Positions 74 to 17,539 of a DNA stretch of 18,801 nt are shown here, in pieces. The translations under genes and the position numbers were made by a program. Position 1 is the first letter of the stretch; every line of letters starts with the position of its first letter. Origin of the DNA: Patescibacteria group bacterium (GTDB lineage: Bacteria > Patescibacteriota > JAHJAL01). The notes beneath the pieces were generated by a model. The model worked only from the letters and a program-made list of their open reading frames with translations, searched no databases and was not told the DNA's origin. Where the stretch lies: contig JAHJAL010000154.1 of the NCBI GenBank assembly GCA_018814055.1, positions 1 to 18,801 of the forward strand, in the 5' to 3' direction.

Positions 74-3000
74 TCAAAAACTGACGTGGATGTATTCCTG
101 GCAGGTGGAGAGATATTCGTTGTCGAGGTCGGCGCAGTCGTTGACCCAGATATCATTGTTGAGGTTTTGCTGGGAGAATTGGGTGTCGTCTTTGGGCCAG
201 ACATAATCAAATGTTTCTACCGCTTTGTCAGTGATAATATCTACGATGTCATCGATGAAATCGGAGAATATTTGGTGGGGGAAGAAATTTGATAGTTTGG
301 TATCAGCGTCAGGTTGATCCTCGTCGAGTAATTCTCCGTCTGAGTCGTAATCTATCTCATAATAATTGAGGGTGCGTTTGTTTTTGTAGAAAGAAATAAT
401 TATGTCAGATAGGTGAACCAGGTTGTCCTGGGCGATTTTCTGGCGGCATTTTTCAAAAATTATGTTGGGGGGAGGGGTGTCATTGAAATTAAACGAAGGG
501 AAGTCTTTTGGTTTTTTTCGGCGCAATCTTTGATTTATTTGTTGCGCCTGTGGATTTCCCGATGGATCAAAGGTATTGATAAAATTGGTGGTAAGGTTGA
601 TGGCTTGCGGCAGGGTAAGTTTACCCTGAAGCAGTTGTTTGATTTGGTTTATTAGCTCATTTTTCTTTGCGTCATCAGTTATTTCAGAAAGGATATTTTG
701 TTGCAGGTATTCCATGGCGGCATCGTCGGTATATTCATCGGGAGTTAAATTTAACAGAGGAATTGTTGAGTCGCTGTTTTGGCATGATCCGACGATTGTT
801 ACCAGCCGTGAGGAAAGATTCTGATAATCTGTTTTGTTTTGGACGGACAAAGTGAGTTCAAGCAAATTATCATATGGCTGGATAAATTCTGGGTATTTAT
901 CCGGGGTGCAGTTCTGGTTGATGAGATTGCCGGCGGAAATCATATAGAGGCCAAGGTGGTAATTGGTTTGGTTGGTAGCGATGGCGGAGAGTATGGCTTG
1001 AATGTCGATTAAATACTGGGGATGGTAGCTGGGCAGCAGGCGGCTGATATCCGGTAGGGAAAGTAGTTTGTAAATGTATTGAGGGTTGTTTTCAATCAGC
1101 GGGCTGACGATGGAAAAACTATATTTTTTGTCCAGGCCGCCATTGGTACTGATGGTATCGGAAATAATGGTTTTGATAGCTGACAAAGTGGATGCCAAGA
1201 ATGGCTGATCAACAAATTTTTCGATGAAGTTATTGAAGTCATAAGAATCTGCCAGATCGGAGGTGTCTTGGTAGTGAAGTCGGGCGGTGAGTATTTGGGA
1301 AATTTGGTTGAAGAAGTTGTTTTGATTGATGAAGTCGATAATCTGATTGATGTCGGAGCTGGGATCTTTGCCGGCGGTGAATATTTGATTGTTGGTGACA
1401 AAGGTGATAATTTCATTTTTACTTTGCTCGGTGTTGTTGTTGATCCAATCCTGGATGATAATCATGGTGTTGATGATGTCGGTAATGTTGGCTGAATTGA
1501 GATCCCGTCCAGTAATGGGGTCTGTGCCGTTGATTCGATGAGATAGGGTGGAATTACCAATCAGGGCCAGGTTTTTGATGGTGGTATCATAGTCGGTTGG
1601 CGTGAAAATTGTCCGATAGATGAATTCGGTTCCGCCATAAGGGGATAATATATCAGTTTGGCTGGTGGTGTATTTGTCTTGCATGGCCAGCAGCAATGGC
1701 TCGCCGGTGGCGGTAGGTGGAAGTATTCCGGGGAAAGCTGCGGTAGTACTGATTTCGATTGGTTTTGTCTGGGAATAGTCGATAATATTGGTGGTATAAT
1801 CCAAAAGAAGAAATGCGCCCAAATTGTTACGAAAAGAGGCACTTGGCCCAATTCCTGGGAAAATTATTTCAGGTAAGTTGATTTTGGGGTAAGCATAGTA
1901 TATCTGATTTGGTATCATTGAGGAAACGGGATTGACTTGATTGTTTAAAAAGTCTTGTTCGGAAATGATGGTCAGATCAGCTATATCGATACCGACTGAG
2001 TTGAGCAGGTTGGGCAGTGGTTGCGGTGTTTGGAAACCGTAGGTTGGATCAACCGAAGTGATGTAGGAATTATCTTGATATTCTTCTATTTCAGAAAGTT
2101 GGTTGATAAATGATCGGCTGGTTATCTTGATAGGACGGATGGTGTACAGGTATTGGTTGGTGATTTTTTGGTGTAAACTGGAATTATAAATCATGTCGAT
2201 CAGCCGTTGACGGAATGATGCCAGTGATTCGGTTGAACCCGTGTCTTGGTAGTATTTTGATTCCAATTGAGTTATTTCCGGCGGGTGGAAGCCGGGGATA
2301 GAAAAGGGTAGATTGGTGTTACCGGGATTGAGATTGTATATGTTGTCGAGGGCAATGTATTCCAACAGATAGGGAATTTTTTGGCTGTCTTCGTAGGTTA
2401 GGTCAACTCCAATTCTGTCCAGAATAATGCTGGCGGAAATACTGGCCAGGGCAAATTCGTCGCCGATGTTTTGGCTGGTGCCTTTCTGGATAATTGTCTG
2501 GATGGAATTGGGTTCGAGGTATGGAGTGATGGTTTCCAGATAATCGGTGTCCGTGTTTTGATATAAGTCATTGAGAAAGGAGTTATGGCCGCCGGGATAT
2601 GAAGAATTATTTGTGATATATGAGTAAAACATCTCAGAGGATTCCGGGTTGGCAAACAACTGGTTGATATCGTTGATGTTGAGTGTTTGGAGGGCTGTGA
2701 ACAGGTCGGCAGTTTGGTTGTTGGCGATTTGATTGGAAACATAATAGTTGATTTTTTGGCTGGCAAAAACTTCAGAAAGGATTGCGGCTGATTTGGAGGA
2801 ATAGGTAATTTTTGGATTGTCCGGATCAACGTGGTAATTGGTGGGTAGGCCGAGAATTCTATTCAAAGTCAGGTCATTTAACCGACTGGTGATTGAACCT
2901 AGATTGTGATTGGAGATATCCTTTGGGTCGATAACATCATCGATCCAGGTAAATATCGAGTGATTGATTTCTTGGATGCCGAGGTTGGCCAGAGATAGTG

Positions 3001-5320
3001 AAATAGCTTGGGAATTATTATCAGAAGAGATAGAGTTGATAAGGTTGGTTAGAATATTGGGCGAAAGATGAGTGTTGGGGGTGTAGTAGATTAGTTCGAG
3101 AGCTTCCGCCTGGTATTGGGCGGGAAGTTTGGTGGCTTGAATAATGCTGAAGGAGTGATTGAATAATTGATATAGTTCATTGACATAACCGCTGGCAAGG
3201 CTGATAGTGGACGTGTTTGGTGATTGGTTGTTCAAAAAAATATAGTCAATGGTTTGTTGGGGTAGGCCCAGGGTGGAATATATGCTGTTGATTTGAAAGT
3301 TGGCGATGGTATTGAGAAGGGTGTGGGTAGTAGTGTTGGATATCTGCCCAAAGTTGTATGTTCCCGGATCTATGTTGAGGTGGAAAATATTGTTGAATTG
3401 ATTGAGTGAGTTTTCGCCAAAAATACTTTGGGGACTGAAATTGTTGGGGTTGGCAAGAATGTTGGAGAATGTATCGGTGATGCTACTAAATACATCCAAG
3501 CCAATTTGGCTGTGTGACCATTTGATTTCGACAGGTTTGTATTCATCTTGGGCCAGATCGAGAGTGATGGGGGTAAAAGGACAACATTTCGGCGGGTCTT
3601 CCAGCAAAAGACAGCTGGAGGGGTCTGATGGGCAGATGTCAAGACCTTGGCAAGCGGCGCAATCGAGCCGTTCATTGTACAAACCAATTTCCATAATATC
3701 GATCGCTCTGAGGAAATAATGAGTATTATTAATATCTTTGCCGGTTTTTTCAAAATCTTGGGGAAGTTCATCGGTGGTTAAGGGCGCATCCAAACCAAGC
3801 CATATTTTGAGGTGGGCGCGGTCTTTGTAGGGTACGCCGAGATTGTCCAGGTCTCCATTGAGCCAGTCGGCGGCATATAGAATTTGTTTGACTCCACATT
3901 TGTCTTCTGTTTTGTTGCATTTTTCGGGATCATTCTCCAGTTTGTCACCGCAGAGATCCTCGATGTCTTGGGGGGTTTCGGGTTCCTGCAGAATATCTTT
4001 GATATAAGTGTCATAATCCTCACCGGTCATCTCCAGCACGTGAAAAATATAATTCAGAAGGTAATAGACACGACTGTCAACGATATAGCCCAAGGCGGCA
4101 TATTCTTCATAGTCAGCTTTGGTCTGGGGCAGCAGCATGTACAGTTCGTCCGGGTTGGCAAATTCCAGGGCGGGCGGGAATTTCTCATCGCGTTCTTTGG
4201 TTTCTTCCTGGAGGGTGGCCAGGATAATGTCTTGCTGGTTTTGCAGGCGGTCGGTGGTGTTACTGATTGATTGATCGTCAGCCTCGAAAGTGTGCAGGTT
4301 TTTGATTTTGCGGGAGGTGACGAAGTGCAGCATTTCCGGTAGATTGTTTTGACGCGATTGCCGCAGTTGTTTGTCGTCAGCCATACTACCGTTGATTTCG
4401 GCACCTTCTCCGGTTTGGATGAGCAGGTATTCGAAGATTTCGTTGAAATCGGCAAGTTCGAGGATAACGCTGTCTTGGCCGAGGTAGTGTGATCGCAAGT
4501 ACCGGTAGTATTTGGGTTCGTCATTGTCTTGGTTGACGCTGTCGGCGTGGTCGATGATGTTGTCAACTATGTCGGCGTTGGCTTTGAGCAGTTCGATGGT
4601 TTCTTCACTGGTATCCGTTTTGATGATTGTGTCATAGGCCAAACTGTTAATTTCTTCATCCATGCTTTTGATTTGTCCGGCCCAGTTTTTGAAGCTGCCG
4701 GATACACTTTTTTCGGAGGCGTTTTCAATGTATTCAAAGGTGGTCCGGCTGTCTGTTTCGGGAGAGTCCGGGTCAAGAACTGTGCCTCCCGGGTGGCCGG
4801 TGGGAGTAGATACCGGGTGAACTTGAGCGGCAATAATTGGTATTTGAATTTCGCTGGAGCCACCGGGTCCGTAACTGGCAAAGTGGGTCAGTATTGCCAA
4901 AAATGGGGGGGCGATGGTAGCACCGCCGGCCAGAAGGGTGGTGATAATGGCAATATACAGGGCCGGTTTACCGGGCATAACTTGGCCAGCGATATTGAGC
5001 ATTGATTTACCAAGGGAACCGAGATTTGGAAAATTTTTGAGTAATTTTTGGCCCAGATTCGCCAGGTTGGTGCCGGTGGGGAGAGCCGATTGCGTTGGTG
5101 GCGGTTGCTGCCGCGCCGGCGGCTGTTGCAATGGTTTTGGTATTCGGTATGTAGGTCTGGTGGTAAAAGAGGTGCGGGCGGATTGGTATGGGGAGGTCCC
5201 GGTAGTTGATTTTTTGGTTTTTGATTTGGCTGATTTGGACGTAGTTTTCTTGGGTGGAATTGATTCCACTTTGAGTTTGGGATTTTTCTTTGGGTTGTTT
5301 TGTTTATCTTGTTTGGCCAT
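74..5320 (-). CDS. Giant single-pass surface protein, copy B (1748 aa)
   Basis: I recognise no family. It is a paralogue of the 1859-residue protein encoded at 8667-14246. Residues 1-118 form a Lys/Arg-, Pro- and Gln-rich tail with about 22 basic and 2 acidic residues. One membrane segment follows at about 119-147, then about 1,600 hydrophilic residues with no further obvious membrane segment. This predicts a cytoplasmic N-terminus and a huge external domain. Twelve cysteines align with copy A (457, 468, 475, 554, 557, 563, 570, 579, 580, 1625, 1729, 1740), and two more are unique (1471, 1513). Other blocks shared with copy A include RILGLPTNY, LPEIIFPGI, SPYGGTE and the C-terminal EYIHVSF (EYVHINF in A). 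There is no LPXTG sorting signal. It starts 16 bp after propeller B, without a Shine-Dalgarno sequence. A surface or channel part of a VirB4-linked machine is inferred from context only; an adhesin is the main alternative. Confidence 0.9.
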   Translation of the reverse strand: MAKQDKQNNPKKNPKLKVESIPPKKTTSKSAKSKTKKSTTGTSPYQSARTSFTTRPTYRIPKPLQQPPARQQPPPTQSALPTGTNLANLGQKLLKNFPNLGSLGKSMLNIAGQVMPGKPALYIAIITTLLAGGATIAPPFLAILTHFASYGPGGSSEIQIPIIAAQVHPVSTPTGHPGGTVLDPDSPETDSRTTFEYIENASEKSVSGSFKNWAGQIKSMDEEINSLAYDTIIKTDTSEETIELLKANADIVDNIIDHADSVNQDNDEPKYYRYLRSHYLGQDSVILELADFNEIFEYLLIQTGEGAEINGSMADDKQLRQSRQNNLPEMLHFVTSRKIKNLHTFEADDQSISNTTDRLQNQQDIILATLQEETKERDEKFPPALEFANPDELYMLLPQTKADYEEYAALGYIVDSRVYYLLNYIFHVLEMTGEDYDTYIKDILQEPETPQDIEDLCGDKLENDPEKCNKTEDKCGVKQILYAADWLNGDLDNLGVPYKDRAHLKIWLGLDAPLTTDELPQDFEKTGKDINNTHYFLRAIDIMEIGLYNERLDCAACQGLDICPSDPSSCLLLEDPPKCCPFTPITLDLAQDEYKPVEIKWSHSQIGLDVFSSITDTFSNILANPNNFSPQSIFGENSLNQFNNIFHLNIDPGTYNFGQISNTTTHTLLNTIANFQINSIYSTLGLPQQTIDYIFLNNQSPNTSTISLASGYVNELYQLFNHSFSIIQATKLPAQYQAEALELIYYTPNTHLSPNILTNLINSISSDNNSQAISLSLANLGIQEINHSIFTWIDDVIDPKDISNHNLGSITSRLNDLTLNRILGLPTNYHVDPDNPKITYSSKSAAILSEVFASQKINYYVSNQIANNQTADLFTALQTLNINDINQLFANPESSEMFYSYITNNSSYPGGHNSFLNDLYQNTDTDYLETITPYLEPNSIQTIIQKGTSQNIGDEFALASISASIILDRIGVDLTYEDSQKIPYLLEYIALDNIYNLNPGNTNLPFSIPGFHPPEITQLESKYYQDTGSTESLASFRQRLIDMIYNSSLHQKITNQYLYTIRPIKITSRSFINQLSEIEEYQDNSYITSVDPTYGFQTPQPLPNLLNSVGIDIADLTIISEQDFLNNQVNPVSSMIPNQIYYAYPKINLPEIIFPGIGPSASFRNNLGAFLLLDYTTNIIDYSQTKPIEISTTAAFPGILPPTATGEPLLLAMQDKYTTSQTDILSPYGGTEFIYRTIFTPTDYDTTIKNLALIGNSTLSHRINGTDPITGRDLNSANITDIINTMIIIQDWINNNTEQSKNEIITFVTNNQIFTAGKDPSSDINQIIDFINQNNFFNQISQILTARLHYQDTSDLADSYDFNNFIEKFVDQPFLASTLSAIKTIISDTISTNGGLDKKYSFSIVSPLIENNPQYIYKLLSLPDISRLLPSYHPQYLIDIQAILSAIATNQTNYHLGLYMISAGNLINQNCTPDKYPEFIQPYDNLLELTLSVQNKTDYQNLSSRLVTIVGSCQNSDSTIPLLNLTPDEYTDDAAMEYLQQNILSEITDDAKKNELINQIKQLLQGKLTLPQAINLTTNFINTFDPSGNPQAQQINQRLRRKKPKDFPSFNFNDTPPPNIIFEKCRQKIAQDNLVHLSDIIISFYKNKRTLNYYEIDYDSDGELLDEDQPDADTKLSNFFPHQIFSDFIDDIVDIITDKAVETFDYVWPKDDTQFSQQNLNNDIWVNDCADLDNEYLSTCQEYIHVSF

Positions 5321-5336
5321 AGTATGTGGCAGTGAG

Positions 5337-6833
5337 CTATGGTTTTACTGGCAGTTGAAATAAGAAGTTGCTGGAATCTTGGAAGTATAGATAGTCGTTA
5401 TCAGAAAAGATATTGTGAACGTTGATTAGCTGTTGAAAGTTTTGGCCGAATAGATCAGTTTTTTGGCCGGTATTGAGATTGAAAAGGTAAAGTATGTCGG
5501 TGGTGGGATAATCCGTTTGGCTATAATAATTGGCGGGAATAGTTGGTGGAGATGGTAAAGCGACCAATAGTTGTTGGGCGTTTATCCAATGAGTTTTGGA
5601 GGGGATAGTGTTGAATCCGGTATTTTGGATATTTTGGTTTTGGATGTTGTAGATTTGGAGAGTGGGTGTATTGTTGTTTTGATTATCAAGATGAGCGAAT
5701 AATATTTGGTTGCCGTCGGGTGACCAACTGGCTTGGAAGCTGCCGGGTTCGGTGAGGATGGTTACGTTTTTTTCTTGGATATTTAGTAAATGAATGGCTG
5801 TTTTGATCTCTTGTCCGGTTTCAAATGGCTGGGGGAGCAATAAAACCAGATTGGGATCGGTCGGTGATGGGATGATCTCGGAGAGGGTAAGGGGGGAGTT
5901 TATCAAATTATATATTTCCCGCCAATCTTGACCGGTGAAGAGGGCGGTATTGATGGAATTGGCCGGGATAAAATCCGGATTGCCAAAACTGTCGGTGGTG
6001 AAGTTGGAGTATTCATAGATAATATTATTATCATCCAACCAGGCGATATTTTTGGTAAAATCACTCAGTTGGTAGTATTGTTTGCTGGTAAAATCATAGG
6101 ACCAGATAGTGGTTTGGCCGTCGGGGGTTCCCGGGCGGTAAAATACACTAACCGGCGAGGAGGCGGTTGTTTTCTGGGGATCTGACGGGTCGGTTTTGAA
6201 GAATCCACCGGAAAAAGCTAGATTATTATTGGTAACTTTGAGGATAACTTTGGTTTTGTTTGGTGAATAAATAATCTGGTTTACGCCAAACCAGGAGTTT
6301 TCTTCGATGATTTCGGTGGTTTGGGTGATGAGATTGTATTTGGTTGGATAATTATTGGTGTTGTCCAGATATATTATTTCGTTGTTTTTGGAGGGAGTGG
6401 GGTGGGAAATTTTGGTATTGATTAGTGGTTCGAATAGCTGCGGCTCAAAAGCATATGTTTGGAAAGCTTCGGCGAAAAATGTTTGGGTGTAGCGGCTGTA
6501 ATTGTCTTTGGTAACTACGATCTGATAGTAAAAGTTGGGTTTGAGGCGTGTTTTGAGCTTTTCGACGTTGGTTTGATCAATGATGATTTTCTCGGTGATC
6601 TCGGGTGATTTTTCCCTGGTAAATGCTTGATCGGACTGTTTGATTTCTATGTTGACGTTATCGGTATTGGGTTTGATTTGTAATATGGATTGGCTGAAGT
6701 ATTGCCAAGCAATGGCCAAGATTATCAAGCCGGCTATTACTATACAGGTGATTATCAGGTTTCTTCTGGTTAAATATTTGTCAACTGGATTAACAATGAG
6801 TTCTTCTTCCTCTTTTTTGATTTCTTGAGCCAT
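5337..6833 (-). CDS. Membrane-anchored PEGA-like/TolB-like beta-propeller protein, copy B (498 aa)
   Basis: Residues 1-24 are charged and probably cytoplasmic. A single membrane helix spans about 25-43, followed by the juxtamembrane motif WQYFSQS. The next ~80 residues (IKPNTDNVNI up to about residue 135) look like a small beta-sandwich of the PEGA type. The rest resembles a TolB/WD40-like propeller. The clearest blade is ASWSPDGNQILF, a PD40-type signature, and YSPNKTKVILK and IIPSPTDPNLVLLL are weaker blade-like stretches. PEGA and PD40 modules usually act outside the membrane in binding protein or envelope polymers; no catalytic residues are seen. It is the paralogue of the gene at 14251-15783. 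It lies 53 bp after hydrolase B and 16 bp before giant B, so co-expression is likely. A scaffold that links the hydrolase to the giant protein is an inference. Confidence 0.85.
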   Translation of the reverse strand: MAQEIKKEEEELIVNPVDKYLTRRNLIITCIVIAGLIILAIAWQYFSQSILQIKPNTDNVNIEIKQSDQAFTREKSPEITEKIIIDQTNVEKLKTRLKPNFYYQIVVTKDNYSRYTQTFFAEAFQTYAFEPQLFEPLINTKISHPTPSKNNEIIYLDNTNNYPTKYNLITQTTEIIEENSWFGVNQIIYSPNKTKVILKVTNNNLAFSGGFFKTDPSDPQKTTASSPVSVFYRPGTPDGQTTIWSYDFTSKQYYQLSDFTKNIAWLDDNNIIYEYSNFTTDSFGNPDFIPANSINTALFTGQDWREIYNLINSPLTLSEIIPSPTDPNLVLLLPQPFETGQEIKTAIHLLNIQEKNVTILTEPGSFQASWSPDGNQILFAHLDNQNNNTPTLQIYNIQNQNIQNTGFNTIPSKTHWINAQQLLVALPSPPTIPANYYSQTDYPTTDILYLFNLNTGQKTDLFGQNFQQLINVHNIFSDNDYLYFQDSSNFLFQLPVKP

Positions 6834-6886: not shown

Positions 6887-8599
6887 TTAATTACAGGCAA
6901 TAGGCCGGGCGTAGATTTTTTTGTCCCAGGGGCCTTCGGAAAATTCACGGATAATGACTCGTGATTGATGGCCGCTAGCTTCAACCACAGCGTTTTGATA
7001 GAATTGGCCGTTGTGGGTGGTAGGGCCAATATATACTCCCATGTGTTGATAGTCGGTGTTGGCGGACGCTTCCCCATGATAGGTGCCGCCAAAGACTGCG
7101 TCACCGGGAAGTATTTCGGATAAAATATTTGAAGATGGGTGGTAAATGTTGATATCACCGTTGTTTTCAAAGCTGGGGATGTAGCTATGATAGTAGCGGG
7201 AATTGTTGGTGGCGTAATACCAGGCGGAACCAAATAAGCCGGCGGCGTCAAAACTGGTGGCATTGATGTCGCCAATATTGTTGTCGGGGCTGAAATCTTT
7301 GCCGATTTGGGCTATCAGGAATTCTTTGACTTGGTCGGCCTGGTCCTGGCACTGATAAATGCTGCAACTGGAGAGCGGCAGATTTTGGGGATCAATGGCT
7401 TCGGCGTTGTATCTGACTTCGAAATGAAGATGATCTCCGTCTGAGTTGCCGGAACTGTCGATATCGGCTAATTTTTGTTTTTTGACGACATTTTGTCCGG
7501 GCTGGACCAGGAGGGTATCTTTTTGCAGGTGAGCATAGATACTGATATAGCCGTTTTGGTGGTCAATTTTGACGAAGTTACCAAAGTACTGTCCACAACT
7601 GTCGTTTCTGGAACCGCGGGGGCAGGTGTTGTTGGTATCGATTACCAGTCCACCGCTGGTGGCGAAAACCTCATATTCATCGTCGATACCTGGTGTGGGG
7701 GCGAAGTCAACTCCAAAGTGGTCATAGCCAAGGATTCTTTTGTATTCGGGATCTTTGAAAGTAGCGGTGATGGTGGTAGTGGTGGTGGGGAGGCACCACT
7801 GGCCGCCGGTGGGGCGGGGAGGTGCCAGGTAGTTACATTGGGTAGACACTTCATCAAAGAAGCGGGTGACGTTGCCGATCCAGTACTGATTTACTTTATG
7901 CGGGTCGTGACTGTCGTCATTGTCAGTACCGTATTCACGACCATCGGTGGTTGTACCGCAAGGGCAGTAGGCATAGGTGCCGACTTTGGCTTGGTTGCAG
8001 TTGTTGGCCGCATATTTGCTGGCGTCAAGCGGGATATAGTTTCCTCCGGCGCCGTTACCAATGGTGACGATAGTATTTTGCCCACGTTCGAAATAGTTTT
8101 TCAAAGTGCCGGTATGGGTTTCGATGGAATCTTCCCAGTCGGAGAAATTATAGGGTGGGAGTAGATTCCAGTAGTTATAATTGCCACTGGTAATGTTTAC
8201 ACCAAGGCCACTTTCTGCCTCAGCGATAGCGATGACAAAGGCGGGATTTAAATCATTGTCTTGGCTATAGGTGGTGATAGTTTCACCTTGTCCATAAAGT
8301 CCTCTTTCGCCGATTTTGGAACTTATATATTCGTCGAGACAATTACCAATTTCTACGGTGGGTATGTTGATAGCGATTGAGGGGAAGTTGAGTTCGAAAT
8401 CAAAAGAAGAGGTATAAGAGGTGCTCTTGGAGACTTGACTGAGTCGTTTATCATTGGGGATTGGTATGTAGTCGAAGATGGCTCCCAGGGAGGGGACATA
8501 TACGTAGGCCATGGGGAGAGCTATGGAAAATAACAATAGGGCCAAAATGGCACCTAGTTGCCAAAGTGTGTTGTTTGATTGTGAATTATCGTCGGGCAT
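6887..8599 (-). CDS. Membrane-anchored peptidoglycan hydrolase, copy B: glucosaminidase-like + M23 + inactive NlpC/P60
   Basis: A membrane anchor lies at about residues 12-35. Residues ~88-250 resemble a lysozyme-fold glycosidase, with candidate catalytic Glu129 in AEAESGLG and the YNYWNL and SDWEDSIETH motifs. This is closer to the GH73/glucosaminidase style than to the transglycosylase of copy A. An M23 (LytM) metallopeptidase follows, with zinc ligands His294 and Asp298 (HFGVD) and His392 of HLHFE, and the active-site His357 in YAHL. It should cut peptide cross-links. The C-terminal NlpC/P60 fold (about 420-570) keeps HMGVYIG but reads SFDAAGLFGSAW. Ala452 replaces the nucleophilic Cys, so this domain should not be a peptidase and may only bind wall peptides. 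Several Cys pairs, for example around the M23 insert, suggest disulfides outside the cell. PrgK of plasmid pCF10 is a known multi-hydrolase T4SS analogue. Translation starts 67 bp after giant A. Confidence 0.9.
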   Translation of the reverse strand: MPDDNSQSNNTLWQLGAILALLLFSIALPMAYVYVPSLGAIFDYIPIPNDKRLSQVSKSTSYTSSFDFELNFPSIAINIPTVEIGNCLDEYISSKIGERGLYGQGETITTYSQDNDLNPAFVIAIAEAESGLGVNITSGNYNYWNLLPPYNFSDWEDSIETHTGTLKNYFERGQNTIVTIGNGAGGNYIPLDASKYAANNCNQAKVGTYAYCPCGTTTDGREYGTDNDDSHDPHKVNQYWIGNVTRFFDEVSTQCNYLAPPRPTGGQWCLPTTTTTITATFKDPEYKRILGYDHFGVDFAPTPGIDDEYEVFATSGGLVIDTNNTCPRGSRNDSCGQYFGNFVKIDHQNGYISIYAHLQKDTLLVQPGQNVVKKQKLADIDSSGNSDGDHLHFEVRYNAEAIDPQNLPLSSCSIYQCQDQADQVKEFLIAQIGKDFSPDNNIGDINATSFDAAGLFGSAWYYATNNSRYYHSYIPSFENNGDINIYHPSSNILSEILPGDAVFGGTYHGEASANTDYQHMGVYIGPTTHNGQFYQNAVVEASGHQSRVIIREFSEGPWDKKIYARPIACN

Positions 8600-8666: not shown

Positions 8667-11600
8667 TTAAAAGTTGATGTGAACGTACTCTTTGCATGAC
8701 TGCATATAAGGATTGTCCCGGTCTTGGCAGTCATTGCGCCAGACGTCGTTGTTGAGATTGATTGAACTTTTTTCTCGGTCTTTTGGCCATAAGTAGTCGA
8801 ATATTCGGTTGGTCTTGACGGCAATTTTTTCAAAAACATCATCGGTGAATTCTGAAAATATTTGATGTGGTGATAGTTGGGCAAGAATAAGACTGGCATT
8901 GTTTTGGTCTGACGACAGTAGTTCCCCCCATTTGTCGCTGGAGATATTATAGTAATCCTGGATTCTCTTATTGAGGTAGAAGCTTGCCAATATGTCGGTG
9001 AGATGAGTAATATTATCTTTGGCAATGGTTTGTTTGCACTTGGAAAATTTATTATCCAGTGGTATGCCGAGAGAAATATTGTTTAGCTGAAGTTGGTTGG
9101 GGAAGTTAATTGACTGGGCGATATTGTTTAGTCCTAATTTGGGATTAGCGTTGATGATGCTTTGGAGATTGGGAATGATTGTGTTGATGTATTGACTATA
9201 GTCAAGTGTTCCGAAGTTTAGACTATTGAATAAATTGGAAAGTTGGTTTTGCAGGTCGGAGGGTAGATTTGATAGAAGGAAGTTGTTAATGGAATTGGAG
9301 GTTGAATCTAAGATAAAATTGGAGATGTTCGGGTTGAATAATGTAGATAAGTTTTGTCCAAATATATTGTCCAGGTGATTCTGGTTTAGCCAGTTTGCAA
9401 TGCTGTTGGAGAATTCTTGATTTATCGCGGGGATAATATCTTGGATGTTGGTGTTTAAGGCGGCGTTGGAAAGTCCTCCGAATTGGGAGTAAAAATTGTT
9501 AACTTGGTCAAAACTGGAAATATTTTGCAACGTGTTACTGGTGGCAATTTGGGCCAGTCCTTGATTGAGATTTGTGTTGTTATGTAAAATATTGTCAAAA
9601 ACACTACCAATCTCGTTGAGGTATTGAGGATTGAAATTTTGAAGAACATTGTTTTGGATTGTCTGATTGGTGATTAGTTGGATGAGATTATTTGAATTGA
9701 GTGTCAATGTCTGATTTAATTCATTGTTGATAAGGTCATAGTCAACACTGGAATTGTTGGATATGTTGCTTGACATTATATTCTTGCTGATGGAGAAAAT
9801 TTTGTCGGGGGTATTTGTTTGAGGTTTGATCAGATTGAAAAATTCAGAAGATGTAATGTTCCCAATTTGAGGCGCGTATTGGTCAAAGTTGTTTAATATG
9901 GATGGTATGTTTTCGAAAGAGTTGAAAAAATTTCCATTGAATATGATTTCTTGTATGTTGTTGATGTTGATGTTTGGATTTTGAGCAGTTATTGTTTGGA
10001 AGACGTCGTGTGTTTGAGAGAATGAAGTGGCGTTGTGAATGCCGTCAATCAGACTGTTATTTGGCCAGCTTTCAATTAATCCAAATGTATTGATGATATT
10101 GTGTACCAATGGTTCATTGAAGGTAGTATTATCTAGTGCGATTGGGTTGATACCGTTCATTCGCCATGCCAGGGAAAGGGCGCCAAGACGCGAGAGGTTG
10201 TTGTACAATTCGTCTTGGTTGGAGCCGATCTGGTTAAGAGTGTGGAAGATGTATTCTGTGCCTCCATAGGGGCTGAGGGTGTCATGAGTGGGATCGGTGG
10301 TGAATTTATTTTCCATGGCAGTTAATAGGGAATCTTGGTCGGGTTGAAAGGATTGAGGAGGTATAAATGGCAAATTGGAATTGGTGTAAACTGTTAGTTC
10401 GATGGGATTTGCTAGTGATTGTTCGGCTGAATTGGTAAATGCTTGTAGAGTTTCAAATGGGCCGATGTTGTTATGATATTGATAATTTGGCCTGATACCA
10501 GGGAATATTATTTCTGGTAGATCAATTGATGGGAAAGCATAGTATGTTTGGTTGGATTGCAAAGTGGCTTTGGCGTCAGAGTTTTGGTTGTTTTCAAAAT
10601 TTGACTCAGGAATGAATTCGAGGGAATTGATATCTATCTGGACTGCTCCTAACACGTTATTGACAGTGTTTGGATTGGTTTGGTTGGCGGAAACAAGGAA
10701 GGTTCTATCAAAATAATGATAATTATTTGAGTGATTGTTTTGGGTATAGTCATTTGAGAAGTTGAACAAATCTGATGTTTGGCTAAATTTGATTTTGAGT
10801 GGTTTGACAGTATATAGGTAGTAAGATGATATTTCGTTGTACCGTGCAGCATTTTCTATCAACTCAATAATTCTTTGTCGGAATTGATTGATTGATTCAG
10901 TTGAGCCGGTGGAATTCCTAAATTTTTGGTCGTAGGCCAGAAGCTCGGGATGGGTGGTGGGGAATACAAGTTCTGTGGTTGTGTCTTGACCAAGTGATTT
11001 TTCCAGATCAAGGTATTCAACCAAGTAAGGTATCTTTTTGGCATCGTCGTGGGAAATGTTGGTGCCTATTCTTTCAAGTACTATTTGAGGGTAAATAGAG
11101 CTAAGAGTGTATTGATCGCCCAGAGAGGGACTAGTGCCTTGCTCAATTATTAGGTTAAGAGCATAATTGTTGAGGTTAGGATAATTAGATATTATTTTAT
11201 CTGAATCAATTTTGTTTTCGAAGTTGCTGACGAAAGAAGTATGGCCGGATGAGTTGTCTGGATTATTAATGTAGTCATATATTTCTTGGCCGTGATTATT
11301 GGGGCTGGCAAATAATTTGGCAAAATCCTGTTGTTTGAATGATGATAGTAACTGGTTTAGACCTGGTGATTGGTTATTATTTAATGCCTCGTTGATTATT
11401 GAATTTGGATAAATGTTACCAATTGAATCAGTTATTATGGCGGTTGATTTTGATAATAGTAAATTAAATTGTTTGTCCGTATTGGAGATGTAATTAGTTG
11501 GAAGTCCAAGGATTTGAGAGAAGGTTATATCACTTTGACGATTGGTGATAGATGCGAAGCCGGTCAGTGAAGAAATATCGTTGGTGTCAATGCTATAGTC

Positions 11601-14246
11601 GGTGAGGCCAAAAATTTGGTGGGTGAGTTCCTGTAGACCGATGTTTGCTAAAGATATTTTGCTGGCCAAGTTGTGATTTTCTGAATTAATAGCTGAAAGA
11701 AGGTTTTGGTGGAGAGAAGGTGATAAGGAGAGGTGGGGATATTGGTTAATTAGATCTAACATGTCTGATTTGTATTCCGATGGGAGCAAACTGGACATTA
11801 GGGGGGTAAAAGAATGGTTGGTAAGGTTGAAAACTTGATTTAGGTAATCTGAACCGATAGCGGTGGAGATAATATTGTGATTATTTGACAAAAGAATATT
11901 GGGATTAAATTGCAGAGGTAAACCAAGTTGTTGATAAATATTGTTGATTAATTGGTTGCCGGCAAATGACATGAGAGTTGTATAATTGCCATTTATAAGC
12001 TGGAATATGTCAAAATTGCCAGTGACTATATCAATATTGAGCAGTTGCTCTAACGGGGAGATTAAAATTTCAGCTATACTGGATAGAATATTGAAAACAT
12101 TTGAGTTGGTATAGGGTGAAATAATCGAGGTAATATCCGTATTATCGAATGGAGTATCAAGGTGCTGCCACTGGACTTGTACCGGTACGTATTCGTCCTT
12201 GGCACTGTCCAATTCGGTGGGGCAGCAGTGGGTTAAATTGCATTCTCCGCTGCAGACAGATAGGCCTTGGCAGGAGGTGCAATCCAGCCGCTCGTTGTAT
12301 AAGCCGAATTCGATGATATCCATGGCGTCAAAATCATAGTGGGTATTGCGATATGTAATGTTTGATCCGGGTTGGTTATCTGATACGGCGGCTTCATCAC
12401 TGTTGAGCGGCGCATCTAATCCGAGCCATATTTTGATGTGAGATCGGTCTTTATATGGCACACCAAGGTTATTTACGTTGTTAGAAAGGATGCTGGTGTA
12501 AAATAATATTTGTCCTATACCACAGAAGTTGGTGGGGCTTTGTCCGCAATATTCCGGATTGTCTTCTAGATTTTCTTGGCACATTTGTAATATATTCCCT
12601 GGGGTGGAGGGATCTTGGATGAAATTACTATGTTGATATATTTCGAAATCTTCCCCTGTCTTTTGCAAGGTACGAAATATATAAGAGAGGATGTAATAGA
12701 TATTGCGGTTAATTTGACCATTGGTGTATTTGTATTCTTTGTATTCTTGAATATTTAGGGGTAGTAATAGTCTAAGTTCGTTTTCATCGGCAAATTCCAG
12801 GGCATATGGCCATGATGGGTCTCTTTCGGTGGTTTCTATCTCAAGGGTAGAGAGCATACGGTCAACTCGGTTCTGGATTTTGTCAATTTTGGTTTGCTTA
12901 CTTGATTCGTCTTGGCCGGATCGATTTATATAATCTATTTGTTTACTGCTTACGTATTCCATTAACTTTGGAAGGTTTTCCCGACGAGATTGACGGAGGG
13001 TTTGATCATCGGCAATGTTGCCGGCTATTTGTCCCCCTTGCCCAGTTTGGATGAGGAGGTATTCAAATATTTCGGCGTTGAAATAAGCCAAATTGATTAA
13101 TTTGGAGTCTTGGTTAAGGTAATGATTAATCAGGTGATTTTGATAAATTTGTTCATCGTTGTCAGTGGCGAGGTTGTGGTAAGAGGAAAGTGCATTTAGA
13201 ATTTCATTGTTTTTTTGGAGCAGGTTTAAGTTGTCGGCTGAGTTATTCACGCCAGAATATTCTTCGGTATAGAGTCGGACAATTTCATCATTCAACGGTT
13301 TGATTTGGCTTTGAATAAATGTCTTATAGTCATTACTTAGAATATCTTCTTGGGCTTGTTCGATATAGATAAACGTGGTTTGTTCGGGGGTTTGTTGGTT
13401 GTCGTTGGTGAGTGTGAGGGGGGGTAATCCAGTGGGGCTGGTAATGGCATTTTCGTACATTGCGTTTAATTCATTGCCAGGTGATTCTTGGCTGCCTTCT
13501 GATCCCCACATGGCCTGCCAGTTGTAAAATGAAAAAATAACTCCCAGAGCGATTGCGGCGAGAATTAGTCCTGCTATGAGGAAACATCCCCAGAGTTTTT
13601 TGAATATATAATAGATAAGCTGTAGTATGTCCCAGACGTTTTCGGCTCGTCGCCAGGCCTGAAGGATAGCGGGGATGATACCTGTTTCGGCGAAAATGAT
13701 TGACAAGGCATCGGCAAATGTTTCTTTGGCTGCTTCTTTGGCGACTTTTTCTCCGGCTTTTTTGCCGGTTTCAACGGCCACTTTGCCTGCTTCCTCGGCG
13801 GCTTTGGCGGCTGCTTGTTTTTTTGCTTCATCACTGGCTTTTTTGGCCGGTTCGCCGGAGGGGGGTGGTTTGGGTTTGGTGTCCGTTGGTGGTATGTGGG
13901 GGGTGGTTGTATCGGGCTTTTTCTCTTTTGGCTCTTCCGGTTTGTCGGGTGGTTTGTCAGATGGCGATTCGGAGGGTTTTTTTGATTCAGGTATATCTGT
14001 TTTTTGGTCTTTTTCGTCAGTCGGCTCACTGGCTGGTGAGGTAGTATCGGTGTCTTTATGGTCTGAAATGTCTCGACTGGGTTGGGCTGATGGTTCGGAC
14101 GGGGTGCTCTCATCGGGGGATTTTCCGGCAGTTTGGCCAGATATGCCCGGCTCTTGAGAACTAGACGACTCAATATCTTCAAAGGTTATTTCCTCGGTGG
14201 ATTGTTCAACTGTTTCTTCGTCTGGTTGTTGGTTGGATTTTTGCAT
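8667..14246 (-). CDS. Giant single-pass surface protein, copy A (1859 aa)
   Basis: I recognise no family. Residues 1-132 are a low-complexity tail rich in Glu, Asp, Ser, Thr and Pro (about 32 acidic, 15 basic). Residues 133-178 form an Ala/Lys/Glu-rich segment that is probably one long charged helix. The only clear membrane segment is about 219-241, so some 1,600 residues should face outward. Twelve external cysteines occur: 556, 567, 575; the cluster 656, 659, 665, 669, 674, 675; and 1737, 1840, 1851. All align with copy B, and the even number suggests disulfides. A further Cys221 lies in the membrane. The last third before residue ~1730 is Asn/Leu/Ser/Gln-rich with motifs like LNNI and FNSLNF, and it is more AT-rich than its neighbours. 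There is no LPXTG motif. It starts only 4 bp after propeller A, so translation is probably coupled. A surface or conduit role in the VirB4-linked machine is inferred; adhesin is the alternative. Confidence 0.9.
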   Translation of the reverse strand: MQKSNQQPDEETVEQSTEEITFEDIESSSSQEPGISGQTAGKSPDESTPSEPSAQPSRDISDHKDTDTTSPASEPTDEKDQKTDIPESKKPSESPSDKPPDKPEEPKEKKPDTTTPHIPPTDTKPKPPPSGEPAKKASDEAKKQAAAKAAEEAGKVAVETGKKAGEKVAKEAAKETFADALSIIFAETGIIPAILQAWRRAENVWDILQLIYYIFKKLWGCFLIAGLILAAIALGVIFSFYNWQAMWGSEGSQESPGNELNAMYENAITSPTGLPPLTLTNDNQQTPEQTTFIYIEQAQEDILSNDYKTFIQSQIKPLNDEIVRLYTEEYSGVNNSADNLNLLQKNNEILNALSSYHNLATDNDEQIYQNHLINHYLNQDSKLINLAYFNAEIFEYLLIQTGQGGQIAGNIADDQTLRQSRRENLPKLMEYVSSKQIDYINRSGQDESSKQTKIDKIQNRVDRMLSTLEIETTERDPSWPYALEFADENELRLLLPLNIQEYKEYKYTNGQINRNIYYILSYIFRTLQKTGEDFEIYQHSNFIQDPSTPGNILQMCQENLEDNPEYCGQSPTNFCGIGQILFYTSILSNNVNNLGVPYKDRSHIKIWLGLDAPLNSDEAAVSDNQPGSNITYRNTHYDFDAMDIIEFGLYNERLDCTSCQGLSVCSGECNLTHCCPTELDSAKDEYVPVQVQWQHLDTPFDNTDITSIISPYTNSNVFNILSSIAEILISPLEQLLNIDIVTGNFDIFQLINGNYTTLMSFAGNQLINNIYQQLGLPLQFNPNILLSNNHNIISTAIGSDYLNQVFNLTNHSFTPLMSSLLPSEYKSDMLDLINQYPHLSLSPSLHQNLLSAINSENHNLASKISLANIGLQELTHQIFGLTDYSIDTNDISSLTGFASITNRQSDITFSQILGLPTNYISNTDKQFNLLLSKSTAIITDSIGNIYPNSIINEALNNNQSPGLNQLLSSFKQQDFAKLFASPNNHGQEIYDYINNPDNSSGHTSFVSNFENKIDSDKIISNYPNLNNYALNLIIEQGTSPSLGDQYTLSSIYPQIVLERIGTNISHDDAKKIPYLVEYLDLEKSLGQDTTTELVFPTTHPELLAYDQKFRNSTGSTESINQFRQRIIELIENAARYNEISSYYLYTVKPLKIKFSQTSDLFNFSNDYTQNNHSNNYHYFDRTFLVSANQTNPNTVNNVLGAVQIDINSLEFIPESNFENNQNSDAKATLQSNQTYYAFPSIDLPEIIFPGIRPNYQYHNNIGPFETLQAFTNSAEQSLANPIELTVYTNSNLPFIPPQSFQPDQDSLLTAMENKFTTDPTHDTLSPYGGTEYIFHTLNQIGSNQDELYNNLSRLGALSLAWRMNGINPIALDNTTFNEPLVHNIINTFGLIESWPNNSLIDGIHNATSFSQTHDVFQTITAQNPNININNIQEIIFNGNFFNSFENIPSILNNFDQYAPQIGNITSSEFFNLIKPQTNTPDKIFSISKNIMSSNISNNSSVDYDLINNELNQTLTLNSNNLIQLITNQTIQNNVLQNFNPQYLNEIGSVFDNILHNNTNLNQGLAQIATSNTLQNISSFDQVNNFYSQFGGLSNAALNTNIQDIIPAINQEFSNSIANWLNQNHLDNIFGQNLSTLFNPNISNFILDSTSNSINNFLLSNLPSDLQNQLSNLFNSLNFGTLDYSQYINTIIPNLQSIINANPKLGLNNIAQSINFPNQLQLNNISLGIPLDNKFSKCKQTIAKDNITHLTDILASFYLNKRIQDYYNISSDKWGELLSSDQNNASLILAQLSPHQIFSEFTDDVFEKIAVKTNRIFDYLWPKDREKSSINLNNDVWRNDCQDRDNPYMQSCKEYVHINF

Positions 14247-14250
14247 ATAT

Positions 14251-15783
14251 TTATTGGATTATATCTTGTGAATAGTCAATGGAAAATAATTGATCTTCTG
14301 CGTTGAGAAAGAATATTGATTCGTTATTTGAGAAGATGTGATTGATGTTTACTATATAATCGAAAATATCAGTAAACTGGTTGGATAGTTGATTGCTGTT
14401 GATGTTGAATATGTATAATACATCATTTGTATCTGTATCGGGTTTTGCATAGTAATTTGGCGGGATAGTTGATCCTGAGAGATTATCTGGGCTTGATATC
14501 TGGATAGGTAGGGCAATGGCGATGTTGTTGTTTGATACCCAGTGAGTTTTGGAAACGAGGGTATGAATGTCTAAACTTCTTTTGTTTTCTCCATTTTGAT
14601 CCATAATCCAGAGAGTAGGGAGGTTTGATAGTTTTGGATCGAGTTGATTGTATAATATTTTTGTACCGTCTGGTGACCAAGAAGCATCATAGCTACTTTT
14701 GTCGGTGAGTTGTTTGACTTCTTTGTTGGCGATGTTTAGCGAATAGATGGCTGTATTGAGTTCTCGACCGGGTTCGATCGGGATAGTTGCAAGTAGGACG
14801 GTGTTGTTCTCGATTGGAGATGGGAGAATGATGGAGTATTGATATATGGTATTTTTTAGATCAAATATGCTTTGCCAACCGGTTCCATCAAATTTACTGG
14901 TGTTTAGTGTGGAAACTTTGTCTGGGCTATCGGTATCAAGGTCAAATATGGTGAAGTTTTGGTATTTGTAAATGATTTTTTCGTTGTCAAGCCAATTAAT
15001 GTTTTCTATGTGGTATCCGAGATAATAGAGGTCTTTGGTGTCGATGTCATAGGCAAATGTCATCAGTTCTTTGTCTGGTATGTCTGGTTGGTAAAAGATG
15101 CTGGGTGGGAAGTATTTGGTGGTCTGTTCCGGATGGTTTGGGTCTGGTTGATTACCTCCACCTTGGAATATGTATGCAAAGTTGCGGACTTTCAAAATAG
15201 CCTTGGTTTTGTCGGGTGAATAGATGACCTTTTCTATTCCCAGCCAGTCGTTTTCTTCCAAAGTAATAGTTTCTCTTGTTTGAATATTGGTTGAACTGAA
15301 GTGAAATTTTTGTGAGTCTTGAGTGGTTTGATTGACGAAATATATATCTTGGTTATTGGGGCTAATAGCTGGGAAGGTTGTGTTTTTCTGTGAAAATGGT
15401 TTTTGAAGATTGGGTTTGTAGGTGACTGTTTCTCGGGGTTGGAGATAATAGTATGTGTTGATAGTAGTATATTCTGGTTTGGAGATTGTGATGTAATAGT
15501 ATTGATTGGGTTGGACTTTAATATTGATGTTGTTGACTGTTTCGTTTTCGTACAAGTAGATTCGATTTAGACTGGTGGTTTCTTCGCGGTTGTCTTCAGA
15601 GGGTAGTGAGTAGAGGGTAATTTGTACATTGTCTATATTTGGTTCGATAATTATTGTGGATTGGCTAAAGTATTGCCAGATGTAATAACCAGTGATTGGT
15701 AATAGAATTATCAATATTAGGGCAATAATGTATTTTGGCCGGATGAAATCTTGTTTTGTTTTGTTGGGAGTTTTATTGTTCAT
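14251..15783 (-). CDS. Membrane-anchored PEGA-like/TolB-like beta-propeller protein, copy A (510 aa)
   Basis: The start chosen is the ATG at 15783 (MNNKTPNK), 25 bp after the hydrolase A stop. An in-frame ATG at 15843 would add 20 residues and overlap hydrolase A by 35 bp. Those extra residues are not matched in the paralogue at 5337-6833, so I reject it. A membrane helix lies at about 17-38, followed by WQYFSQS, the same juxtamembrane motif as in copy B. Next comes a PEGA-like beta domain (EPNIDNVQI; PNQYYYITISKPEY). A TolB/PD40-type propeller follows, with FPAISPNNQDIYF, YSPDKTKAILK and ASWSPDGTKILY as visible blade motifs. No enzymatic site is apparent. Its stop is 4 bp before the start of giant A, which suggests fixed expression ratios and possibly a complex of the two. 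An external scaffold or binding role is inferred from the fold types. Confidence 0.85.
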   Translation of the reverse strand: MNNKTPNKTKQDFIRPKYIIALILIILLPITGYYIWQYFSQSTIIIEPNIDNVQITLYSLPSEDNREETTSLNRIYLYENETVNNINIKVQPNQYYYITISKPEYTTINTYYYLQPRETVTYKPNLQKPFSQKNTTFPAISPNNQDIYFVNQTTQDSQKFHFSSTNIQTRETITLEENDWLGIEKVIYSPDKTKAILKVRNFAYIFQGGGNQPDPNHPEQTTKYFPPSIFYQPDIPDKELMTFAYDIDTKDLYYLGYHIENINWLDNEKIIYKYQNFTIFDLDTDSPDKVSTLNTSKFDGTGWQSIFDLKNTIYQYSIILPSPIENNTVLLATIPIEPGRELNTAIYSLNIANKEVKQLTDKSSYDASWSPDGTKILYNQLDPKLSNLPTLWIMDQNGENKRSLDIHTLVSKTHWVSNNNIAIALPIQISSPDNLSGSTIPPNYYAKPDTDTNDVLYIFNINSNQLSNQFTDIFDYIVNINHIFSNNESIFFLNAEDQLFSIDYSQDIIQ

Positions 15784-15808
15784 TGCAATATTTATATAAT
15801 AGTTGTTT

Positions 15809-17539
15809 TTATTCAAGACAGACGGTTGGGCGTCCGAATTCATCGGCCCAGTCTTGATCGCGATATTCGCTAATATTTATATTATAACTGCCGGCTGGGT
15901 ATCTGGTTAGTCCTGCTCTGGTGCCGCCGCCGGCTTGTATGACAGCATGTTCAAAAAATATTCCGTTGTATGATAATGGGCCGGCATACATGGCCATGTG
16001 TTGGTAGTCGTGATTGGAGGATACATTGTCGTCGCCGCCGGAGCCGGTGATTGTACCAGTGACGGTACCTCGCATGAGAGCATCGCCCGGCTGAAGCAGA
16101 TTGAAGTGGGCAGCTTCGTTGCCGGAAGGCAGGTTGAAATATGTAAGTTGGTTGTAGCCAAGTGGGCCAAATAGATGTACGCCGCTATGGCAGAATTGGG
16201 TATCATATGGCTGAACGGTCGGGGGGACGCATGTGTTGTTTAGCCCCCAACTCCAAGCACTGCCGAACAAACCGGCACAGTCAAAGCTGTTTTGTTCTAT
16301 TCCGCCCACGCCGCCTGATTCATAGTCGTTGCCAAGTTTGGAATAAGCAAATTGGACTGCTTTTTGTCCGGAATCAAGACAACTGGTAAATGATCCTGGG
16401 CTACAGACTTTGATGATTGGTTCGGGGTCGGTGGCAATATTGTTGCGCCTGATTTCAAAATGCAGATGTGGCCCGTTACTGTTACCTGAATTATCGATAA
16501 TACCAAGTTTCTGTCCCTGGCTGACTGTGTCTTCTGTTTCAACTAGAATTCCTGGTTCGAGGTGGGCATATAATGAGGTGTATATGGTATTGTCGCTAAG
16601 TTGGTGTTCAATCAAGACATAGTTGCCGTATCCTCCGCAGCTATTGTCGTTTTTGGCGCAACTATCAATTACTCTTATGATTTTACCGTTTCTTGATGCT
16701 ACCGCGTGACCGGATTCGTTGATTTCCGGAGCGATATCGATGCCGCTGTGGTAATGATCACCTCTGTCCTCTCCATAGTGTGATGTGATGGTGGTGATGA
16801 CTGGATCAGTTGGCCAGCACCATTGGGCGGTGGCGATTTGGGAGGTGGGGTAGCTTAGGCAGTCTTTGTATAATTCGTAATAGTATAATACATTTTTGAC
16901 GTAATCCTGAGTTTCAGTATATGGTGGAATGCCATTGTAGTCTTGGACAGCGCCGGGTCCGGCGTTGTAGGCGGCAATTTTGTTTTCCAGGGTAGTCAAA
17001 TTGCCCAATTCATTGGGAATGCTGTTGGTGAAATAATATGTACCGGCGAAAATTCCGTCCCAAACTCCGTAGGGATCTTTGGTGCCGTTCTTGTCACCGT
17101 CAGTGGCATCGCCAGCGGTTTCAATATCTATTTGGGTCCATGTACTGGGAATTATTTGCATATAGCCCCTGGCACCGGCGGATGAAGTTTGGTCGGGTTG
17201 GAAGCCGCTTTCTTGCTTGACTATTGCGGCGATTAGGGCTGGGTCTTCAGAGTATTTGGTAGCGGCAGCATTGATGGCTGTGAGGATATCTTTGTCGACA
17301 TCTTCTAGTTCGGGGCAATCATCGGATAGGTATTCGTTGATATTATCAAATATACCTTGTCCGGTTTGTTTGGCAATTTCCCATACACTTTTTTTGAGGT
17401 CTATGGTTTTGAGAGAGATACCGGCACCAAATAAAATAAACCCGAGCAGTATGATAAACAAACAGCATCCGCAGCAAATCATGCATGGGAGCATTGTTAG
17501 GAATTTCTTGATTGGGTCGTCTTGTTCGTTATCGCTCAT
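15809..17539 (-). CDS. Membrane-anchored triple peptidoglycan hydrolase, copy A: lytic transglycosylase + M23 + NlpC/P60
   Basis: I start it at the ATG at 17539 (MSDNEQDD). An in-frame ATG at 17596 would add 19 residues encoded by the AT-rich repeat, which is unlikely. A Cys-rich membrane segment spans about 17-41. Residues ~83-228 are a lytic transglycosylase (SLT) domain with catalytic Glu110 in KQESGF, then GYMQIIPSTW and AAYNAGPGAV; it cuts glycan strands. Residues ~245-370 are an M23 metallopeptidase with His264 and Asp268 (HSGID), His326 (YAHL) and His360 (HLHFE). Residues ~390-576 are an NlpC/P60 Cys peptidase with Cys421 (SFDCAGL), His514 (HMAMYAG) and a possible third residue, His531. 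All three sites look intact. Such enzymes open the wall for secretion machines (VirB1; PrgK of pCF10 combines SLT, LytM and CHAP). Its position directly after virB4 supports that role. A cell-division or remodelling hydrolase is the weaker alternative. Confidence 0.93.
   Translation of the reverse strand: MSDNEQDDPIKKFLTMLPCMICCGCCLFIILLGFILFGAGISLKTIDLKKSVWEIAKQTGQGIFDNINEYLSDDCPELEDVDKDILTAINAAATKYSEDPALIAAIVKQESGFQPDQTSSAGARGYMQIIPSTWTQIDIETAGDATDGDKNGTKDPYGVWDGIFAGTYYFTNSIPNELGNLTTLENKIAAYNAGPGAVQDYNGIPPYTETQDYVKNVLYYYELYKDCLSYPTSQIATAQWCWPTDPVITTITSHYGEDRGDHYHSGIDIAPEINESGHAVASRNGKIIRVIDSCAKNDNSCGGYGNYVLIEHQLSDNTIYTSLYAHLEPGILVETEDTVSQGQKLGIIDNSGNSNGPHLHFEIRRNNIATDPEPIIKVCSPGSFTSCLDSGQKAVQFAYSKLGNDYESGGVGGIEQNSFDCAGLFGSAWSWGLNNTCVPPTVQPYDTQFCHSGVHLFGPLGYNQLTYFNLPSGNEAAHFNLLQPGDALMRGTVTGTITGSGGDDNVSSNHDYQHMAMYAGPLSYNGIFFEHAVIQAGGGTRAGLTRYPAGSYNINISEYRDQDWADEFGRPTVCLE

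Follow-up and report, generated by a model that had tools for sequence, protein, structure and literature searches.

We found that the window, by which we mean the whole 18,801-nucleotide stretch analysed here, carries two successive sets of genes for a wall hydrolase, a propeller protein and a giant membrane-tethered protein next to a VirB4-type ATPase. We consider it probable that the window covers the downstream half of a type IV secretion system (T4SS) locus of Patescibacteria and that a surface module is doubled there. The window is the entire contig C96 of a metagenome-assembled genome (MAG) from Patescibacteria (925 kb in 173 contigs, 81.7% complete). Its seven genes all lie on the minus strand, in the order VirB4 fragment (17671..18801), H2 (15809..17539), P2 (14251..15843), G2 (8667..14246), H1 (6887..8599), P1 (5337..6833) and G1 (74..5320), where H, P and G stand for hydrolase, propeller and giant. 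The gaps between them, from VirB4 to G1, measure 131, −35, 4, 67, 53 and 16 bases, an operon-like packing. These coordinates bear out the core of an earlier, sequence-only reading of this DNA, which had described two hydrolase–propeller–giant sets of equal order and strand after VirB4.

That reading also held that the corresponding members are paralogues and proposed that each pair be aligned. BLASTP reveals homology far above chance in all three pairs: 36% identity over 1687 residues for G1 and G2 (855 bits, E 0), 37% over 467 residues for P1 and P2 (299 bits, E 7e-100), and 30% over 523 residues for H1 and H2 (163 bits, E 1e-47). Most of the shared motifs it had listed are present, namely WQYFSQS in both propellers (residue 43 of P1 and 56 of P2), LPEIIFPGI in both giants and QWCxPT in both hydrolases, but RILGLPTNY occurs in G1 only, G2 reading QILGLPTNY. 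By profile and sequence searches, the source assembly, at its 81.7% completeness, contains one VirB4, two giants, two propellers and two hydrolases of the H1/H2 kind.

The exact family of the giants is rare. Among 7982 scored candidates from a collection of 5.8 billion proteins, only two join G1 (1748 residues) and G2 (1859 residues): P0002 (1874 residues, 40% identity) and P0003 (1904 residues, 37%), both from MAGs named Patescibacteria group bacterium, in each of which one giant was found. The giant alignment A1 retrieved no relative from GTDB contigs or IMG/VR, and the genomes compared around the source assembly are relatives at phylum level only. G2 has no match among PLSDB plasmids or INPHARED phages, so an origin from a known plasmid or phage is unsupported. 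Matches of A1 to the N-terminal part of the giants in five other genomes (of 379 searched, the source included) were mostly to membrane segments and low-complexity stretches, and we did not take them alone as a sign of homology. The A4 profile gave matches in 37 of the 379 genomes, some of them to low-complexity tails or insert repeats.

The split between the two sets is, judged from these sequences, an old one. G1 and G2 share 34.9% identity, and each is 35.8–39.2% identical to the single giants P0002 and P0003. The earlier proposal of an old duplication stands as regards the old split and the conserved gene order; duplication in place is less certain. Of the three quartet trees, the one that joins G1 and G2 ranks last by likelihood, although it is not rejected (approximately unbiased (AU) test, p 0.087 against 0.52 and 0.58, with a program warning of too few replicates). 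A possible alternative is that one set is a xenologue, acquired from a related Patescibacterium and inserted beside a resident hydrolase–propeller–giant set. The lower identity between G1 and G2 than between either of them and P0002 (38.5% for G1, 39.2% for G2) would fit such an event, as would the ranking of the trees and the single giant found for each of the two relatives. However, all six pairs among the four giants fall at 35–39%, which indicates that the signal is nearly saturated, and a duplication that predates the split of the lineages, followed by loss elsewhere, gives the same picture; the two sets also share order and strand. The sequences would fit duplication in place as well as acquisition.

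The VirB4 fragment, the C-terminal 376 residues of a protein cut by the contig end, matches the NCBIfam family CD1110 (E 7.7e-80; 269 bits for a fragment, against a cut-off of 325 set for the whole protein). It shares 59% identity with a VirB4 protein encoded on a Candidatus Berkelbacteria contig (L073; query residues 217–593 of 607). The contig end weighs against our reading of the locus, since it places the N-terminal part of VirB4 and the upstream genes (VirB3/PrgI, VirB6) outside our view; a VirB4 query of the assembly matched the window's fragment only, and the N-terminal part was not found. Of the 116 Patescibacteria genomes sampled, 106 have a VirB4 of the CD1110 type at E 1e-40, and 104 score over the cut-off. 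Two VirB4 matches carry in-frame stops (five in G070:C1:105952-107985, one in G112:C6:331-2259) and are possibly decayed or differently coded copies.

We examined the surroundings of VirB4 in other Patescibacteria, using 57 fetched neighbourhoods with a readable VirB4 for counts. Propeller-profile matches make up 28 of the 145 genes in the co-directional run after VirB4 as against 7 of 603 other genes, and hydrolase matches 12 of 145 as against 2 of 603. The contrast is partly built in, as six propeller and four hydrolase seeds lie inside those runs, and 10 of the 28 propeller matches are proteins of 124–234 residues, too short for a whole propeller. A profile from the P1/P2 alignment itself finds genes in the run after VirB4 in L067 (E 5e-13), L066 (2e-11), L090 (1e-8) and L024 (3e-4), with further matches in L080, L058, L076 and L064. 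Among 54 loci chosen from the VirB4 list, 20 contain a propeller match at E <1e-10 within the fetched sequence.

We placed the window in a VirB4 tree together with 69 loci; it groups there with 20 of them, which come from 19 genomes, in a clade with support 0.93. Twelve of these lie outside a divergent group described below, and 10 of the 12 have the order VirB4–hydrolase–propeller (L046, L052, L060, L061, L063, L070, L075, L089, L090 and L094). The remaining two are L092, with VirB4–propeller–hydrolase, and L093, with a hydrolase-like gene and a 1471-residue protein. In every one of the 12 except L093, what follows is either a membrane-tethered protein of 836–1531 residues or a tethered protein of 401–587 residues and a giant of 1856–2943 residues; other genes intervene in L046, L061, L063, L070 and L075. 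The 12 loci span nine family-level groups (f26, f37, f48, f68, f76, f82, f85, f88 and f118) and the 10 span seven. The sample is biased, as 8 of the 12 loci (all but L046, L052, L060 and L070) were fetched for giant-like matches to A1 or A4, and L052 was previously known to hold one. The hydrolase in the first slot varies in its domains: SLT and VanY in L052, NlpC/P60 in L061, SLT and M23 in L063, glucosaminidase and amidase in L094, CHAP in L089, amidase_3 in L090 and 3D with a sub-cut-off CHAP in L075, with weaker calls in L060 (sub-cut-off NlpC/P60), and L046 and L070 (our own profile only).

No second successive full set was seen in the fetched VirB4 loci, where not every gene is annotated. 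Two propellers occur at L046, L048, L063, L067, L070 and L075. In L046 and L070 the VirB4–hydrolase–propeller series is followed by a tethered protein, a giant of 1856 or 1993 residues and a second propeller, with genes of the other strand between; this second propeller is a partial parallel to the doubled set. Single sets thus recur beside VirB4 in other Patescibacteria, and the hydrolase–propeller–giant set looks like an accessory module of the T4SS of this lineage, in which only the doubling is unusual. The earlier statement that the arrangement matches no T4SS layout is not supported. Among further features of these loci, the third-slot tethered protein contains a wall-hydrolase domain in L089 (M23) and L094 (NlpC/P60), with none found in L092, and in L089, L090, L092 and L094 there follows a giant of 2065–2943 residues whose repeats match the insert of the A4 profile. 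The genes flanking the cassette in L052, L060 and L063 have starts that we take to resemble those of DnaA, DnaN and RecF. Such flanks would be in line with the closeness of the T4SS to the replication origin described in PMC12102498.

The VirB4 group nearest to the window (support 0.65) comprises L015, L020, L022, L062, L081, L083, L084 and L085. Here the layout diverges: in L062, L081 and L083–L085 a propeller and a tethered relative of 618–700 residues are found upstream of the T4SS genes and are encoded on the opposite strand. These five loci were fetched for A1/A4 matches, L022 is from the genome of L081, and the L015 and L020 stretches are too short upstream. The second gene after VirB4 in L020 (11283-13031) encodes a T2SSE-type, pilus assembly-like ATPase (Pfam, 400 bits), and the equivalent slot in L015, L022 and L062 holds genes of similar size (546–580 residues).

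This looser linkage bears on a further alternative, namely that the sets are wall-remodelling or adhesion genes that merely adjoin VirB4 and do not serve the secretion machine. The different hydrolase chemistry between lineages would agree with it, and VirB1 homologues are reported to show no high association with VirB4 in most classes, Paceibacteria being an exception (PMC12102498). Yet propeller and hydrolase matches are concentrated in the co-directional run after VirB4, a hydrolase, a propeller or both follow VirB4 in all 12 loci of the nine family-level groups, and hydrolases such as VirB1 and PrgK commonly form part of T4SSs (PMC12102498, PMC11323569); we regard mere adjacency as unlikely. 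A chimeric contig merging the loci of two strains is very improbable: the source is a 173-contig MAG, but all six genes of the sets have unbroken reading frames, a gap of 67 bases joins the sets, guanine–cytosine (GC) skew keeps one sign along the window at a GC content of 35–50%, and the identity of about 35% between the sets is not that of strains.

The two hydrolases have diverged unequally. H2 has an N-terminal membrane segment (at residue 19) followed by SLT (67 bits), M23 (74 bits) and NlpC/P60 domains, the first two above the Pfam cut-offs. The NlpC/P60 domain was assigned by alignment only, through P0023, a 542-residue hydrolase encoded on a 3.8-kb contig whose own Pfam NLPC_P60 match is 18.4 bits, below the cut-off of 23; the motif in H2 is FDCAGLF, with Cys421. 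H2 is thus a membrane-anchored protein adjoining VirB4 that combines several wall-hydrolase domains, and the earlier description of a triple-domain wall hydrolase suits it. The description does not extend to H1, which also begins with a membrane segment but in which Pfam recognizes only M23, with whole motifs (HFGVD and HLHFE). The NlpC/P60 motif of H1 reads FDAAGLF, so the catalytic cysteine is gone, replaced by alanine at residue 452 (bases 7244-7246, minus strand). The first domain of H1 agrees with that of H2 in 30 of 152 columns (20%), its identity to that of P0023 is again 20%, and Pfam SLT gives no match in H1 at E up to 10. Instead, this stretch (8060..8335, minus strand), in the slot of the SLT domain of H2, matches the glucosaminidase domain that Pfam recognizes in a hydrolase adjoining VirB4 in L094 (one-subject BLASTP, E 2e-4). 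The hhalign probability for the pair is 17.5%, and the Pfam glucosaminidase family has no match on H1 itself. These comparisons suggest that a glucosaminidase (GH73)-like first domain replaces SLT in H1, which would leave it with a changed first and last domain.

P0023, found among the 120 of 969 hydrolase-search matches that were listed (H1 not being among those listed), resembles the two hydrolases in different parts. Its SLT domain is 56% identical to H2 as against 20% to H1; conversely, its M23 domain is closer to H1 (47% against 38%, bootstrap fraction 0.935), as is its NlpC/P60 domain (54% against 42%, bootstrap fraction 0.986). Such a split resemblance, SLT to H2 and NlpC/P60 to H1, would follow from the decay of different parts in two copies of a single ancestor, and the simplest reading is that H1 and H2 descend from one three-domain hydrolase of which each may have kept different parts. 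Against this stands that P0023 is only one protein, encoded on a contig of 3.8 kb, and does not necessarily resemble the ancestor.

Both P1 and P2 contain a single membrane segment, at the N terminus. Their propeller assignment comes from Pfam PD40, with 18.2 bits in P1 and 20.7 bits in P2, both below the cut-off of 20.9, together with a partial TolB propeller in P2 (NCBIfam, 28 bits). The latter is far below the TolB equivalog cut-off of 343, and P1 is without any NCBIfam match, so neither protein is called a TolB equivalog. The protein database gives P2 as 510 residues, starting at 15783. Pfam PEGA has no match in P1 or P2; it is present ahead of the propeller in the homologues of L052, L063 and L094.

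Both giants consist of a low-complexity N-terminal tail, a membrane region and a long C-terminal part. The description of single-pass proteins holds for G1, but a simple hydropathy scan of G2 gives two weak segments, at 177 and 210 (membrane region about 177–228). The C-terminal part of G2, about 1600 residues, is taken to be outside the cell. The motif HxxxxAxDI is invariant in the four giants G1, G2, P0002 and P0003, which also share a VxxxWxH stretch, conserved cysteines and a final histidine near the C terminus; the invariant residues are H636, A641, D643 and H1856 in G2 numbering. The motif lies at 12315..12341 in G2 and at 3695..3721 in G1 (H534, A539, D541), and the last histidine is part of CKEYVHINF (8670..8696) and CQEYIHVSF (77..103), respectively, all on the minus strand.

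Among the giants of L052, L060, L061 and L063, phmmer connects every pair but L061–L063, five of the six; these four proteins share SAHxxGxAxDI and an invariant last histidine, with HxH in two of the four. We take SxHxxGxAxD with a final histidine to be the pattern of M15/LAS zinc peptidases. In the window-type giants the serine and glycine of this motif are not kept. A profile of the window-type N-terminal core aligns with the pooled patescibacterial N-terminal core (hhalign probability 55%, E 1.2e-4, score 34.5), placing HxxxxAxDI on SAHxxGxAxDI and PVQVQWQ on PIQVxWQ in the expected places, and control scores are lower (13.6 for the reversed profile, 10.3 and 12.5 for unrelated propeller and hydrolase profiles). 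Restricted to match columns, the score is 27.2, a value that 0 of 200 column shuffles reached. Elsewhere, Pfam M15_2 on the L052 giant (E 0.0054; 16.9 bits, below the cut-off of 27) and M74 on another large VirB4-adjacent protein (L019; E 0.0068, below cut-off) give faint matches. A first profile comparison with shallow alignments, in which only the membrane segment aligned, was set aside.

Several results weigh against kinship of the window giants with these proteins and peptidases. The N-core probability falls to 44% when only the long forms are compared and to 6% with only the short forms; it is 23% when query and target are exchanged and 16% in match-column form, where the shuffle maximum of 25.7 leaves a small margin to 27.2. 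In the untrimmed control, 2 of 200 shuffles scored above 130, unexplained; restriction to match columns removed these scores and lowered the observed one from 34.5 to 27.2. The C-terminal giant profiles do not match (probability 0.9%), and 9 of 150 C-core shuffles equalled or exceeded the observed score, six or more of these with values above 130. Pfam M15 is absent from G1 and G2 (E up to 1) and from P0002 and P0003 (E up to 10). The VanY domains of two VirB4-adjacent hydrolases align with L052-type giants only at two motif pieces (hhalign probability <4%), and show no motif alignment with the window giants' own profiles. The short relatives in the divergent-layout VirB4 subclade read SA[FY]xxGQ, so the zinc residues are lost and catalysis is not general. 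AlphaFold models are of low confidence (mean predicted local distance difference test (pLDDT) scores 39 and 48), and a single fold search with a low-confidence model matched mainly the helical part.

Taken together, the weak N-core match, the position after hydrolase and propeller, and the shared topology make common descent of the window giants and other patescibacterial T4SS giants likely but not proven. The motif positions suggest a giant whose base is akin to a peptidase of the M15/LAS type, interrupted by an insert of about 1000 residues. In L077 (8653-10407) a 584-residue protein contains a Pfam PHP domain (29.9 bits, cut-off 26.4), and its terminal stretch, RGNSGMWANDRMWDRIHIGY, closely resembles the C terminus of a 2022-residue giant of the same genome (L076); the C-terminal unit can thus occur apart from giants.

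From domain content and gene order we infer how the parts could work in the T4SS. The membrane-anchored wall hydrolase of each set would open the peptidoglycan, the membrane-anchored propeller would serve as a scaffold tying wall, hydrolase and giant together, and the tethered giant would reach outwards through the wall towards the host cell, both sets presumably serving the same VirB4 machine. H2–P2–G2 may have kept the usual wall-opening role. H1–P1–G1 would have an altered cutting chemistry, its hydrolase combining another kind of sugar-cutting domain with an NlpC/P60 domain that is catalytically dead. This points to a second target or a mixed complex: the set could act on a second wall layer or a second host type, or join the first set. 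We further offer, as a speculation to which we give a low probability, that the tethered giants are split enzymes of the LAS type that have become arms outside the cell and replace the missing outer parts of the T4SS, with one VirB4 motor, two arms with two wall-cutting heads and two outlets, for example for own and host wall or for two hosts. A module that travels with VirB4 would name testable outer parts of the patescibacterial T4SS, and the doubled set allows a retained copy to be compared with an altered one inside a single genome.

The role of the T4SS in Saccharibacteria has been described as completely unknown (PMC11665869), while in Southlakia a T4SS cluster is essential for epibiotic growth on the host (PMC10633639), and essential peptidase and lysozyme homologues are encoded just downstream of virB4 (PMC12102498). 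The patescibacterial T4SS is described as of a monoderm type, with a relaxase lacking in most genomes (PMC12102498). In the main text of that paper, as distinct from its figures and supplements, the terms propeller, PEGA, WD40, PD40, M15 and duplicat occur 0 times, as does propeller in the main text of PMC10633639. A full-text search of open-licence literature, judged by titles and the starts of abstracts, found no paper about a hydrolase–propeller–tethered-giant module. The window resembles the known MPF-FATA-like systems of Patescibacteria in its CD1110-type VirB4 and in the wall hydrolases adjoining it (PMC12102498, PMC10633639), and differs in its doubled downstream set with giants of 1748 and 1859 residues. 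The doubling is what is unusual here; single related sets lie beside VirB4 in other ultrasmall bacteria.

The closest likeness for the hydrolases is PrgK of the enterococcal pCF10 T4SS, one T4SS-linked protein with three wall-hydrolase domains (LytM/M23, SLT and CHAP), some of them inactive, in which the inactive domains regulate the active one (PMC11323569). The window differs in the order SLT–M23–NlpC/P60 and in having two unequal copies. The dead domain of H1 is NlpC/P60, its M23 motifs being intact, whereas in PrgK the LytM site is degenerate and LytM and CHAP are reported to be without activity (PMC11323569). The hydrolases P0041 and P0097, among the matches listed, align with SLT–M23–NlpC/P60 in the same order as H2, which is about 29–31% identical to them. 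For the giants the comparison is with M15/LAS (VanY-type) peptidases, which other patescibacterial giants resemble in SAHxxGxAxDI and the invariant last histidine; the window giants keep the histidine and aspartate but not the serine and glycine, and an insert of about 1000 residues splits the pieces of the motif.

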